The notes under the pieces: model-generated
What the model saw: the letters and a program-made list of their open reading frames with translations, nothing else
Database searches by the model: none
What the model was told of the DNA's origin: nothing
From: Candidatus Omnitrophota bacterium
Lineage (GTDB): Bacteria; Omnitrophota; Gorgyraeia; Zapsychrales; Fredricksoniimonadaceae
Assembly: GCA_015233145.1 (NCBI GenBank)
Contig: JADFYI010000007.1
Span: 1 to 47,966, forward strand
DNA: 47,966 bases
Direction of reading: 5' to 3'
Made by a program: the position numbers and the translations under genes
Shown: piece after piece, positions 19,154 through 39,231 of the stretch
How the letters are laid out: each line of letters opens with the position of its first letter
How positions within the stretch are numbered: the first letter of the stretch is position 1

Positions 19154-20236
19154 TTAACCATCCGTAAAACGAACAACTTCCCCTGCGAGACGTTTCACCG
19201 CTTCGGGCAAAAATTCGTCCTTCAGGCTTTCTCGAACATTTGTTTGGGAAACGTTGCGGTTGAGCAATATTAAAATCTTATCCCTCAGGATTGACGCTGA
19301 CAAGTCTTTTTCATCAATTATTAAAGCCATTTTCAAACGCTCCAAAACCCTGGCATTATAAACCTGATGGTTTTTGGCTCCTGGATAAGGAATCATGATG
19401 GAAAGTTTTCCCAAAATCCCCAATTCCGTCACAGTCCCTGCCCCTGAACGCGCCACAACAAGGTCGCTGGCCGCATACGCCTCGTCCATGTTTTCAATAT
19501 ATTCTTTAAGGGCATACCCTTCTTTTATAGAACCGCACACCTCACGGACGCGAAGAAAATCCTTCCTGCCTGCGGCATGGACAACCTGAAAACCCGGCTT
19601 TTCTGAAAATTTTGTAATAACTTCTATCACGCAATCATTCAGTCTGCGGCTTCCCTGGCTCCCGCCAAAAACAAGTACGGTTTTTTTAAGAGGATCCAGC
19701 CCGAATTTTTTGAGCGCTTCTTCCCGATTAATGTTTAAGCCCATTGAACGAAAGGGAATCCCCGTCCACACGGTTTTCTTGGGAGGAAAAAACCGGGTGG
19801 CATCTTTAAACCCCACACAGACACAATTGACAATCCGCGCAAGAAACTTGTTGGCCTCACCGGGAAAAGCGTTTTGCTCATGAATCATGGTTTTACGCCC
19901 CAAAAGCCAGCTCACAAAAACCGTGGGAAATGAACTGTACCCGCCAAACCCCAAAACCACATCCGGCTTAAAATCTAAAACTGTTCCTGTGCAATCCCCA
20001 AAGGCTTTTAAAAGACAAAAAAACGCTGTCACAACTTCCCAGGGGCTTTTGGCCACAAACCCTTTGGCTGTAATTTCCTTGACCGCAAATCCTTGAGATT
20101 TAAGCTTGTCGGCAGAGCCACTCAATACACCGATAAACATGACACCATGCCCCAGGCGCTTGAGCTCCTCGCCTGTCACCAGCGCCGGATAAATATGGCC
20201 GCCAGTCCCGCCTGTTGCAATGAGAATTTTTTTCAT
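19154..20236 (-). CDS. murG: UDP-GlcNAc:lipid I N-acetylglucosaminyltransferase
   Basis: A 360-aa GT28 glycosyltransferase that adds GlcNAc to lipid I on the inner membrane face, forming lipid II. I chose ATG 20236 because it gives MKKILIATGGTGGHIYPAL with the glycine-rich motif at the very N-terminus, as in the family; the frame opens 23 codons earlier. The second glycine-rich segment (VFGGSQGSRRLND) and the sugar-nucleotide motif region ARSGAGTVTELGILGK are present. It lies between repeat copy 1 and murC-ddl. Confidence 0.95.
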   Translation of the reverse strand: MKKILIATGGTGGHIYPALVTGEELKRLGHGVMFIGVLSGSADKLKSQGFAVKEITAKGFVAKSPWEVVTAFFCLLKAFGDCTGTVLDFKPDVVLGFGGYSSFPTVFVSWLLGRKTMIHEQNAFPGEANKFLARIVNCVCVGFKDATRFFPPKKTVWTGIPFRSMGLNINREEALKKFGLDPLKKTVLVFGGSQGSRRLNDCVIEVITKFSEKPGFQVVHAAGRKDFLRVREVCGSIKEGYALKEYIENMDEAYAASDLVVARSGAGTVTELGILGKLSIMIPYPGAKNHQVYNARVLERLKMALIIDEKDLSASILRDKILILLNRNVSQTNVRESLKDEFLPEAVKRLAGEVVRFTDG

Positions 20237-20335
20237 AAACTTTTGGCTGAAACCTTTTAACGCCTGAAAAAAACAAAAACACATTCCCTTGAGCGATAAT
20301 TCCAAATCATGTCACAAGCCGAAAAAATTTTCTAT

Positions 20336-20447
20336 GGCAAAGCCGTAAGAATGTGTTTGATGCGAATCGTGAAGGCTTTACAAAAAAATTATCTTATTAG
20401 AAAAAAGCCGTAACGCTGAGTATCAAACACATTCTGGAGGATTTGCC
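20336..20447. repeat. Structured palindromic element, copy 1 (murG-ftsW gap)
   Basis: This element fills most of the 244-bp gap between ftsW and murG. Plus-strand layout: outer helix ggcaaa/tttgcc (20336-20341, 20442-20447); facing 6-nt loops gccgta and ggagga; a perfect 14-bp helix agaatgtgtttgat (20348-20361) with its complement (20422-20435); a conserved block GCGAATCGTGAAG facing GTAACGCTGAG; and an inner helix ggcttt/aaagcc around an AT-rich loop. Copies 2 and 3 share this plan with compensatory changes. It could be a structured RNA or a mobile palindromic repeat. It matches no family I can name. Confidence 0.85.
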
Positions 20448-20480
20448 TCCGCCTCTATTGGTCAAGCCCCCTTCTTAGTA

Positions 20481-21575
20481 CTACCCGCCTAAATCCTGCG
20501 TGCGGGAAACATTGAGCATAAGGCCGACAGCCACCATGTTAAAAATCAGCGCCGAGCCACCATAACTGATAAAAGGCAGCGGTAAACCCTTTGTGGGAAG
20601 CGCCCCGATGCTCACCCCCACATTAACCGCCACCTGAATCGAAATCATGACCAGAATGCCAAAGCAGAGGTAATAACCGAATGAATCGGTGGTGTGTTTA
20701 AGAATGCGTGTGCCCTGCCAGATGAACGCCACAAAAAGCACAACCACAGCCATGGCCCCCAGAAACCCCAACTCCTCCCCGATAATGGAAAAAATAAAAT
20801 CCGTATGCGCTGCCGGAAGGTAAAAAAGCTTTTGTTCGCTTTTCCCCAACCCGACACCCCAAAACCCGCCGGAACCGAGCGCGATCTGCGACTGGGAAAG
20901 CTGGAACCCAATGCCCTGCGGGTCGTTCCAGGGATCCATAAAAGCCACAATGCGCCGCATGCGGTAAGGCGCTTTTAATATTAAAATCACCAAAACCGGA
21001 ACCGCAGCCAAAAACATGCTTAAGAGATACTTCCAGTTCCCTCCGGCGATAAAATACATGGAAAGTGTAATCACAAAAACCAGGACAGTGTTTCCCAAAT
21101 CCGGCTGTTTGACAATAAGCGCGCACAAAAGCCCCATCACAAGAATGATCGGTAAAAAACCTTTCTTAAACGAGCGCACCTCAGCCTGTTTGCGGGAGAA
21201 AAAATCCGCAAGATAAATAATCAAAGCTACTTTCACAAACTCTGACGGCTGAAAGTTAATCGGCCCCAGGCTAAACCACCTCCGGGCGCCTGAAGATACC
21301 TTGCCGATATGAGGGACCAATACCAACAACAGCATCACAATGGCAACCCCCAAAATCAGCCTCGCCCACTTTTGAAGGAGGCGGTAATCAATGGTCATGG
21401 CCCACCACGTAAGGACAGTTCCGATCAAAAGAAACATCAGATGCCGGATAAGAAAATACATGCCGTTTTTCATGACCTCAAGGGCATAGACACCACTCGA
21501 GCTGTAAATCATCACAGTCCCAAAACAGATAAGGATAACGAATGTGGCAAAAAAAGAAATTCGAAGTTCGCGCAT
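20481..21575 (-). CDS. ftsW: Septal peptidoglycan polymerase FtsW (SEDS)
   Basis: A 364-aa SEDS protein with about ten membrane helices that polymerises lipid II with its partner FtsI. Family features are an early MIYSSSGVYA segment, LGPINFQPSEFVKVALIIYLA, ILKQPDLGN-type sequence (VKQPDLGNTVL), the LSQSQIALGSGGFWGVGLG stretch and PFISYGGSALI near the end. ATG 21575 is preceded by AGCAGGT; an in-frame TTG lies two codons earlier. It follows murD by 12 bp and precedes murG as in other dcw clusters. Confidence 0.94.
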   Translation of the reverse strand: MRELRISFFATFVILICFGTVMIYSSSGVYALEVMKNGMYFLIRHLMFLLIGTVLTWWAMTIDYRLLQKWARLILGVAIVMLLLVLVPHIGKVSSGARRWFSLGPINFQPSEFVKVALIIYLADFFSRKQAEVRSFKKGFLPIILVMGLLCALIVKQPDLGNTVLVFVITLSMYFIAGGNWKYLLSMFLAAVPVLVILILKAPYRMRRIVAFMDPWNDPQGIGFQLSQSQIALGSGGFWGVGLGKSEQKLFYLPAAHTDFIFSIIGEELGFLGAMAVVVLFVAFIWQGTRILKHTTDSFGYYLCFGILVMISIQVAVNVGVSIGALPTKGLPLPFISYGGSALIFNMVAVGLMLNVSRTQDLGG

Positions 21576-21587
21576 AACCAAACCTGC

Positions 21588-22838
21588 TTATAAATTATTA
21601 ACAATTTCCTTAAACACTCTTCCCCGGTGTTCAAAATTATCAAACATATCAAAACTCGCACACATGGGGCTTAAAAGCACGGTCTCCCCGGATAACGCCT
21701 CTTTTCTGGCTGCGCTGACAGCCTCGGCCATATCTGTATAATCCGCAAGGGCAGCCGCGCCGTCAAAAGCTTTATGAAACTTTCCCCGCGTCGTATCTTC
21801 TTTGGTAAGGACAAAGAGCTTTTTTACTTTAAGCTTCACCATCTCACGCAAGACCGAATAATCCGCGCCCTTGTCATGCCCGCCGGCAATGAGGATCACG
21901 GGTTTCGTCATGGTGGACAGCGCCCAGCGGCCAGCCTCAACGGTTGTGGACTTGGAATCATTGATATAAGTAACACCGTCCAAAACCCTGACCTTTTCCA
22001 GGCGGTGTTCAACCCCTCGAAAAGAATCAAACACCTTGTTCGCGACTGTGTCGGCTATCCCTAAAATCCTGGCTACTTCAAGGACCGCCAAATGATTGGG
22101 ATTACGCGTCTCCCCCGGCTTGTTAAAGAATCTGACCCGGGCACGCGTTTTATCCGCAGCTTTTTTCGACCATTCATCCCGGCTGTTCAAGACCGCAAAG
22201 TCCGAGGATGCCTGGTTCATAAAAAGCCGGGCCTTGGCATTAAAATAATCCTGCATGTCAGGATGGCGGTCCAAATGGTTTTGGCTGAAATTCAAAAGCA
22301 CGGCGATAAACGGACGAAAAGTTTCAATCAGCTCAAGCTGAAAAGAGCTGATCTCAACAACAAAATAATCCACATCTTTTAACACATGCGCGGAAAATGG
22401 CGTGCCCACATTCCCGCACAAACACACCTTTTTCCCGGCCGCCTCAATGACTTTGGAAATAAGCGTTACAGTGGTGGTTTTTCCGTTACTACCCGTCACG
22501 GCAATCACAGGCTTGCGGCAAAAGCGCCAGGCAAACTCAATCTCTCCCCACACCGGAATTCCAGCCTCTCGCGCCCATGCCAAAGGCTCGGCATCGCGCC
22601 AGACGCCCGGGCTTGCCACGACAAGATCGCTTTTTAAAACAAACTCGCGGGTATGCCCGCCAGACTCAATTTCCACCCGTGATAGATCCCTGATGGCCAC
22701 GAGGTCTTTTTCAAATTCCTGACGCGGCTTGGCATCGGTAATCTTAACCTTACCGCCGAGCTCCATGACCAGATTAGCCGCAGCCAACCCGCTTCTCGCC
22801 GCGCCAATGATTGTGACTGTTTTGCCTTTTAAATCCAT
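21588..22838 (-). CDS. murD: UDP-MurNAc-L-alanine:D-glutamate ligase
   Basis: A 416-aa Mur ligase that adds D-Glu to UDP-MurNAc-L-Ala. The N-terminal Rossmann motif (TIIGAARSGLAAANL), the P-loop (VTGSNGKTTTV, about residues 113-123), the central NFSQNHLDRH segment and YINDSKSTTVEA in the third region are all present. Slightly shorter than the usual 430-450 aa. AAGGGGA lies upstream of the ATG with rather wide spacing. Repeat copy 2 separates it from mraY. Confidence 0.95.
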   Translation of the reverse strand: MDLKGKTVTIIGAARSGLAAANLVMELGGKVKITDAKPRQEFEKDLVAIRDLSRVEIESGGHTREFVLKSDLVVASPGVWRDAEPLAWAREAGIPVWGEIEFAWRFCRKPVIAVTGSNGKTTTVTLISKVIEAAGKKVCLCGNVGTPFSAHVLKDVDYFVVEISSFQLELIETFRPFIAVLLNFSQNHLDRHPDMQDYFNAKARLFMNQASSDFAVLNSRDEWSKKAADKTRARVRFFNKPGETRNPNHLAVLEVARILGIADTVANKVFDSFRGVEHRLEKVRVLDGVTYINDSKSTTVEAGRWALSTMTKPVILIAGGHDKGADYSVLREMVKLKVKKLFVLTKEDTTRGKFHKAFDGAAALADYTDMAEAVSAARKEALSGETVLLSPMCASFDMFDNFEHRGRVFKEIVNNL

Positions 22839-22865
22839 AAAATAAAATCCCCTTACCCTTCTTTC

Positions 22866-22985
22866 GGAATGGCAGAACCGGAAGAATGTGTTGATGCGAA
22901 TCGTGAAGGCCTTACATTCCTATTCTCTTATGAGAAAAAGGCCGTAACGCTGAGCATCAGCACATTCTGCAGGGTCTGCCAATCC
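22866..22985. repeat. Structured palindromic element, copy 2 (murD-mraY gap)
   Basis: This fills the 148-bp gap between mraY and murD. Plus-strand layout: outer helix ggaatggcaga/tctgccaatcc (one mismatch); facing loops accgga and gcaggg; a 14-bp helix agaatgtgttgatg (22883-22896) against 22955-22968 with one U-G pair; the block GCGAATCGTGAAG facing GTAACGCTGAG; inner helix ggcctt/aaggcc (22908-22913, 22938-22943); and a terminal hairpin ttctc-ttat-gagaa. Relative to copy 1, paired changes in the inner helix (ttt/aaa to ctt/aag) and outer helix (aaa/ttt to aga/tct) keep pairing. Confidence 0.87.
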
Positions 22986-22986
22986 A

Positions 22987-24078
22987 TTAGCGCATTTTTA
23001 ATGTTGTTAAGGTTACCAGCGCCAGGATGATCCCCACGATCCAGAATCTGATGACAATCTTGGATTCTTTCCAGTCAAGCTTTTGCAGATGATGGTGATA
23101 GGGAGAGCATAAAAACACCCTTTTGCCTGTGAGCTTAAAAGACGTCACCTGGATAATCACGGAGAGCGCCTCCCACACAAACACCCCGCCCAAAATGACC
23201 ATCAAAAATTCTTTTTTAATAAAAACAGAAATAATTCCAAGTGTTCCACCGAGCGCCAGGGCCCCGACATCTCCCATAAACACACTGGCCGGATGCGCGT
23301 TGAACCACAAAAACCCCAGACTCGCGCCCACAATTGCCATGCAAAAAATCGTAAGCTCCCCGGCACCCGGAAGATACGGGATAAGCAGGTACTGGCTGAA
23401 ATTGACGTGGCCTGTCACATAACACATGATACTCAAAGGAAGCGCCACCATGAGCGTGCAGCCAATGGCAAGGCCATCCAGCCCGTCAGTCAAATTCACG
23501 GCGTTGGAGGTGCCAACCACAATCAGCATGACCACAATAAAATAAAACGCGCCAAGGTCAACCATGGCGCGCTTTAAAAACGGCACATCAAGAGTCGTCG
23601 AAACGCCCATTTGCGTGTAAATATAAAAACTTACAATCGCGGCCAGAAGCACCTGCCAAATGAGTTTTGTACGGGAACTCATGCCGTTTTTACTTCTTCC
23701 GGTAATCTTAAGGTAATCGTCGATAAAGCCAACCACGGCAAGCCAGAGCATCGTAAAAATAGTTAAAAGAATATAGCGGTTCGACACATCCGACCATAAC
23801 AAGACCGAGAGTAAAATACTGCCTACGATCAGAATCCCGCCCATTGTCGGCGTCCCCTGTTTCGGCTTAAGATGTTCACCTAAAACATCCCCCCGGCCGG
23901 CGCCCATCACCGGCTTTTCCCCAAAATTCCATTCTTTAAGCTTGCGGATAAACCAGGGACCGATAATAACGCACAACAAAAATGTCGTGACCGCAGCCAT
24001 GCCGGCGCGAAAAGTAATGTACCTGAAAATATTCAAAGGAAAATATGTAAACCGGAACTGCGAGAGAAAATAAAACAT
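22987..24078 (-). CDS. mraY: Phospho-MurNAc-pentapeptide translocase
   Basis: A 363-aa polytopic enzyme that moves phospho-MurNAc-pentapeptide onto undecaprenyl phosphate, forming lipid I. Diagnostic segments are GTPTMGGILI, IDDYLKITGRSKNGMSS with the catalytic-site acidic pair, NLTDGLDGLAIG, FMGDVGALALGG and the cytoplasmic CSPYHHHLQK stretch. AAAGGG eight bases upstream supports the ATG. It lies 5 bp after murF. Confidence 0.97.
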   Translation of the reverse strand: MFYFLSQFRFTYFPLNIFRYITFRAGMAAVTTFLLCVIIGPWFIRKLKEWNFGEKPVMGAGRGDVLGEHLKPKQGTPTMGGILIVGSILLSVLLWSDVSNRYILLTIFTMLWLAVVGFIDDYLKITGRSKNGMSSRTKLIWQVLLAAIVSFYIYTQMGVSTTLDVPFLKRAMVDLGAFYFIVVMLIVVGTSNAVNLTDGLDGLAIGCTLMVALPLSIMCYVTGHVNFSQYLLIPYLPGAGELTIFCMAIVGASLGFLWFNAHPASVFMGDVGALALGGTLGIISVFIKKEFLMVILGGVFVWEALSVIIQVTSFKLTGKRVFLCSPYHHHLQKLDWKESKIVIRFWIVGIILALVTLTTLKMR

Positions 24079-38997: not shown

Positions 38998-39036
38998 AAA
39001 AACCCCTGTCTCGACGAGATATCAAAACAGGGGTTT
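38998..39036 (-). terminator. Rho-independent terminator upstream of acyP
   Basis: A perfect 10-bp stem, aaacccctgt (39000-39009) with acaggggttt (39027-39036), is followed on the minus strand by TTTTT. It would stop transcripts coming from the tRNA-Pro and repeat region before acyP. On the plus strand a later T run also follows, so bidirectional action is possible. Confidence 0.65.
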
Positions 39037-39102
39037 GGACGATTTTTAATTGCATATCCAGCTATCCGAAAAAATTTGTCATTTAAAACCCCTGCCAAGC
39101 CC

Positions 39103-39231
39103 GGGAAGACCGGAGGAATATCTCTGACGCGAATTGTGGAGTGAGCTGATATAGAGAGCTCTTTTTATTTGATTTCTAAACTTGCCAGCGAACGCAACGC
39201 TGAGCGGCGGAGATGTTCCGCAGGGCTTCCC
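39103..39231. repeat. Structured palindromic element, copy 3 (acyP-tRNA gap)
   Basis: Third member of the family seen at 20.3 and 22.9 kb. Plus-strand layout: outer helix gggaag/cttccc (39103-39108, 39226-39231); the same facing loops accgga (39109-39114) and gcaggg (39220-39225); a 12-bp helix ggaatatctctg/cggagatgttcc (39115-39126, 39208-39219) of entirely different sequence from the other copies, with two U-G pairs; then GCGAATTGTGGAG facing GCAACGCTGAG. The inner arm is longer and holds gagct/agctc. Conserved loops in a changed helix argue for selection on structure. Confidence 0.8.

Follow-up and report, generated by a model that had tools for sequence, protein, structure and literature searches.

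A probable mobile hairpin element in the cell-wall operon and other intergenic gaps of a Candidatus Omnitrophota family

Two gaps in the cell-wall operon of a Candidatus Omnitrophota bacterium, between murG and ftsW and between murD and mraY, each hold a long palindrome, raising the question of whether these sequences serve the operon as structured RNA or are there as mobile DNA. The initial annotation of the 47,966-nt stretch analyzed here (the window) described both as elements of about 110 bp, noted a third copy, and offered three readings: an RNA regulator of operon balance, a processing site, or a non-autonomous mobile repeat. We confirmed the size and position of the two elements and the presence of the third, which was detected with an E value of 8e-12 by a covariance model built from five other copies (Table 1). 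The reported exchanges between copies 1 and 2, from GGCTTT/AAAGCC to GGCCTT/AAGGCC in the inner helix and from GGCAAA/TTTGCC to GGCAGA/TCTGCC in the outer helix, are both exact. The blocks GCGAATCGTGAAG and GTAACGCTGAG are the same in both copies, as claimed, but they are partly paired (CGT/ACG) rather than wholly unpaired. Copies 1 and 2 are on the + strand and the mur and mra genes on the - strand, so the mRNA contains the complementary strand of each element. Scans for promoters and terminators near the elements gave results at chance level overall; immediately ahead of copy 3 there is a short terminator-like hairpin with perfect arms (AAACCCCTGT/ACAGGGGTTT; positions 39001-39037 of the window). 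The real start of murG is probably at ~20236.

Table 1. Elements, parts of copy 1 and adjoining cell-wall genes in the window
Feature	Position	Strand	Remarks
murG (TIGR01133)	19154-20305	-	NCBIfam match
Element copy 1	20336-20447	+	112 nt; murG-ftsW gap; antisense to both genes; 134 bits
Copy 1, outer and middle stem, 5' arm	20336-20359	+	
Copy 1, conserved tip, 5' half	20360-20380	+	GATGCGAATCGTGAAGGCTTT; includes G-A internal loops
Copy 1, terminal loop, then tip 3' half	20381-20424	+	loop with conserved TTATTAGAAAAA; 3' half GCCGTAACGCTGAGTATC
Copy 1, middle and outer stem, 3' arm	20425-20447	+	
ftsW (TIGR02614)	20481-21581	-	NCBIfam match
murD (TIGR01087)	21588-22838	-	NCBIfam match
Element copy 2	22871-22980	+	110 nt; murD-mraY gap; antisense to both genes; 123 bits
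mraY (TIGR00445)	22987-24078	-	NCBIfam match
Element copy 3	39103-39231	+	129 nt; second core type; ligA on one side, tRNA/fabZ on the other; antisense to adjoining genes

All copies of the element form a single long hairpin of about 100-150 nt. An outer stem of ~6-9 pairs leads through a small internal loop to a middle stem of 8-16 pairs; inward of this, a second internal loop carries tandem G-A (GCGA/TGAGC) and is followed by an inner stem, which is capped by a terminal loop containing TAGAAAAAG or a close variant. Relative to dinucleotide shuffles, the folding z scores of copies 1 and 2 were -7.3 and -9.3 for the + strand, and -5.5 and -7.7 for the - strand. In the best-sampled genus the tip sequence is nearly invariant, whereas the outer stem differs among copies yet stays paired, often extending into the flanks. 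The copies of the source genome end in GGC...GCC, and six of them share GGCA[G/A]A... ends despite unrelated flanks; between genomes and between copies, however, the termini vary, with no constant tag at either end. A second core type is present in four of the nine copies of this genome (39103 in the window, C4, C20:123998 and C49), and the C49 copy joins a type I outer stem to a type II core.

We determined the distribution of the element with two covariance models. The first, built from five copies of the source genome, found nine copies in that 1.8-Mb genome, three of them in the window, and also picked up relatives from further genera of that genome's family. The second, built from 17 sequences, brought the total to ~61 copies, comprising those in nine genomes of one family and two weak, motif-bearing copies in another family of the same order. 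In a phylum-wide sample of 384 genomes, matches were confined to six, all of the same family, and the other 378 had none. Most relatives within the element-bearing family had no copy, and copy number among congeners ranged from 2 to 13; the genomes are incomplete, and these per-genome counts are lower bounds. Consistent with the initial statement that no RNA family fits, searches against Rfam at gathering and relaxed thresholds yielded nothing over the elements, even at E values of up to 2. Single copies had no blastn match at an E value of 0.01 among 20,395 records from 5,426 E. coli genomes, and none in plasmids or phages. Viral and public genome contigs scanned for exact 15-mers and 18-mers gave chance matches only, none with the partner half.

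A specific role in balancing the cell-wall operon finds no support, since the other copies are flanked by diverse, unrelated housekeeping genes, including metG, mtnA, hydrogenase genes and many others. No copy clearly interrupts a gene. Between codirectional genes, 29 of 45 copies are antisense and 16 sense, which makes a function of the named strand in host mRNA unlikely, although a plain mRNA hairpin would form in either orientation. Seven further copies lie between convergent genes and seven between divergent genes. Although 40 of 61 copies lie on the C-rich strand (p 0.02), we did not rely on this as a replication-strand preference, as G006 and G024 point in opposite directions. For 53 of the 61 copies the nearest neighbor in sequence was found in the same genome, compared with 8 expected from label shuffling; this clustering by genome indicates amplification or homogenization within genomes. 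In one genome (G007), two copies at unrelated sites are 99% identical.

Of 28 relatives in which the mraY-murD gap could be measured, 25 have one of 0-43 nt, whereas it is 148 nt here. Three distant relatives (G005, G023 and G031) have unrelated palindromic inserts in this gap, which measures 107, 94 and 212 nt in them, and hairpin elements may land there repeatedly. Three gaps are occupied by the element in two genomes each (metG-mtnA in two genera, and two others between congeners), and some positions may therefore be old or preferred. At metG-mtnA and in one of the congener pairs each copy resembles the core of its own genome, so that conversion or independent insertion is as likely at these sites as simple inheritance.

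The occupation of unrelated gaps, the use of both orientations, the likeness of copies within genomes, and the empty mraY-murD gap in relatives lead us to interpret the palindromes, with a probability of roughly 0.7, as a small hairpin element that is mobile but non-autonomous. This element would insert between genes of one bacterial family, without target duplication, and multiply within genomes; among the three readings offered initially, the same evidence favors the mobile repeat. The strong fold and covariation, the nearly invariant tip with its unpaired conserved letters, and the location of most copies in operon-like gaps that are probably transcribed would instead suit a cis-acting structured RNA, used by the host in many transcripts for processing, stability, or ligand or protein binding, with dispersal secondary. 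The mixed orientation relative to genes, the lack of any function common to the neighbors, and the absence of a copy from most relatives in the same family make such a role improbable.

Covariation, first noted between copies 1 and 2, was strong across the enlarged set. In the 17-sequence alignment, 23 of 27 pairs had changes on both sides, double-change cells numbered 104 as opposed to 32 in shuffled alignments, and the covariation score was 0.62, compared with 0.21 when shuffled and 0.03-0.14 when slid. A second alignment had 149 double-change cells, and 50 when shuffled. Because a structure model was used to find the relatives, these values are somewhat biased, but the second alignment and the loop letters that are conserved point the same way. 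The initial annotation took the paired changes to mean selection on structure rather than chance palindromes. The folds are indeed far from chance, but the claim was overstated: template switching during DNA replication can also generate paired changes, creating and repairing hairpin stems (PMC8794818), and covariation alone is thus no proof of selection. It is conceivable, though somewhat unlikely, that the covariation is mostly mutational, with template switching between the arms correcting the stem under little structural selection, an explanation compatible with mobility. The fast turnover of outer stems with pairing kept is consistent with such correction, as is an outer-stem pair, T-A in one and C-G in the other, at which two near-identical G007 copies already differ. 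By contrast, correction alone would erase loops, and the conserved internal loops are unpaired in nearly all copies; the mismatches, moreover, are strand-asymmetric. Selection on structure is supported mainly by the persistence of the unpaired conserved loops.

The asymmetry is apparent in the stems of the named strand, which contain 57 G-U and 35 A-C oppositions, and 71 A-G and 19 C-T mismatches; these counts are non-independent, and models that permit G-U favor G-U. The named strand folded better than its complement in 57 of 61 copies with DNA parameters and in 42 of 61 with RNA parameters. In our view the strand asymmetry argues moderately for recognition of the element as a single strand. 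Together with the asymmetric conserved letters at the tip, the better folding of the named strand suggests, with about even odds, that the mobile form would be a single-stranded hairpin, by analogy with the substrates of HUH-type enzymes.

Short forms that lack the core, with the outer arms joined directly, were observed at G007:C20:21495-21526, G029:C122 (~505-540) and G000:C38 (~35754). GGCATGCC is found on both arms of the element, and these forms are thus probably deletions between the palindrome arms. They could also be empty targets, if the conserved core alone were mobile and inserted at the tips of existing palindromes; the C49 copy, with its mixed stem and core types, would fit such a process. 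However, the same outer stem occurs at unrelated sites in the six own-genome copies with common ends and among five G007 copies, indicating that the stem travels too, and inter-arm deletion accounts for the core-less forms. We therefore regard mobility of the core alone as highly improbable.

We compared the element with known families of small repeats. As the initial annotation had suggested, it resembles the ERIC/IRU/RU-1 repeats of enterobacteria (127 bp) in size and placement in transcribed gaps, and also in dispersal and in being palindromic over nearly its full length, while differing in sequence. ERIC repeats are considered mobile, and their effect on mRNA stability depends on orientation (PMC2229807). 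Membership in this family failed on sequence similarity, TA termini and target-site duplication: the 5,426 E. coli genomes held no sequence match, and the element, without TA ends or target duplication, is conserved at its tip rather than at its ends. REP/BIME sequences, which are associated with RAYTs, are likewise many-copy imperfect hairpins between genes, and RAYTs act on REP hairpins as single strands (PMC3733652). REPs, however, are 20-40 bp long with GTAG or CGTC at one end, whereas the element is about 100-150 nt, with copies measured at 101-131 nt, bears no tag and does not adjoin RAYT genes; assignment to REP/RAYT failed on size and tag, and on the expectation of a RAYT gene flanked by the repeat. 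YPAL/RU-2 of Yersinia (168 bp), compared by description, is also a long palindrome without TA ends (PMC2229807), but has target duplications of 3-26 bp, which the element lacks. Correia/NEMIS and other bacterial MITEs share with the element a length of ~100-160 bp, a non-coding and gene-adjacent character, and folded transcripts. In MITEs the terminal repeats are conserved, and in most cases TA ends and duplicated targets accompany them (PMC2229807). The element shares with them dispersed short non-coding copies and empty sites in relatives, but its ends vary between genomes and copies, with mainly the pairing kept. A conserved tip with variable ends is the reverse of the classical arrangement; nor does the element have conserved terminal inverted repeats in common with an autonomous element, as the ends differ and no pair of them was found around a transposase. 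We found neither target duplications nor TA ends, and neither a GTAG tag nor a transposase partner, so that membership in ERIC, REP/RAYT and the classical MITEs fails. The best reading is that the element family is previously undescribed and lineage-restricted, belonging to the general kind of small mobile palindromic repeats but unusual in keeping its tip and not its ends.

We detected no target duplication, flanking direct repeats being no longer than in shuffled flanks, and no transposase gene carrying element ends in the genomes examined, although these assemblies are incomplete and a transposase could be missing. Y1_Tnp genes are present in most element-bearing genomes, and the action of RAYTs on single-stranded hairpins (PMC3733652) would suit a REP-type element moved by the RAYT (Y1) transposase of the genome. 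We think this very unlikely, because a model search found no element nearby at the 15 Y1 loci inspected, because G007 (96% complete, 12 copies) has only Y1 gene fragments, and because RAYT-like genes are flanked by different palindromes. The RAYT-like Y1 genes in G000:C38, G016:C8 and G024:C91 are surrounded by GTAG-tagged palindromes (e.g. CGTAGGGGCGGAC...GTCCGCCCCTACG), and these constitute a distinct, REP-like family that coexists with the element in those genomes. Immediately after the C49 copy comes a REP-like palindrome (TGTAGGGCGATGC...GCATCGCCACTACA; L105:2950-3000). We rejected inverted copy pairs as transposon ends, since the genes they enclose encode an FkbM-type methyltransferase and a GAF/ANTAR protein, and no transposases. 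Reverse transcriptase genes were not consistently found across element-bearing genomes: RVT_1 is present in G007 and G024 but absent from the parts examined of G000, G006, G016 and G029, all incomplete assemblies.

Copies of the element that lie within operons would be transcribed, placing a hairpin in the mRNA, likely as a physical consequence of insertion; by analogy with reports for ERIC, such hairpins may change mRNA cleavage or stability. Essential operons such as mur/mra evidently tolerate large hairpins between their genes. A doubtful extension is that the family represents a mobile element of a new class, whose structured single-stranded hairpin tip would be recognized by an enzyme or other protein, leaving the ends free to evolve provided that they pair, and which would seed a ready-made RNA structure into operons throughout the genome. 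The hairpin offers a concrete substrate for finding a mobilizing enzyme, and the 61 copies, in genomes of known kinship, form a natural data set for separating structural selection from template-switch mutation. The family also adds to a poorly known, uncultured lineage a hairpin element with a conserved tip and an outer stem kept mainly as pairing. The lone copy in genus g3 (G014:C26:370-484), near a contig end, shares 90% identity with the G029 type found in genus g8, and may reflect either horizontal transfer or a misbinned contig.
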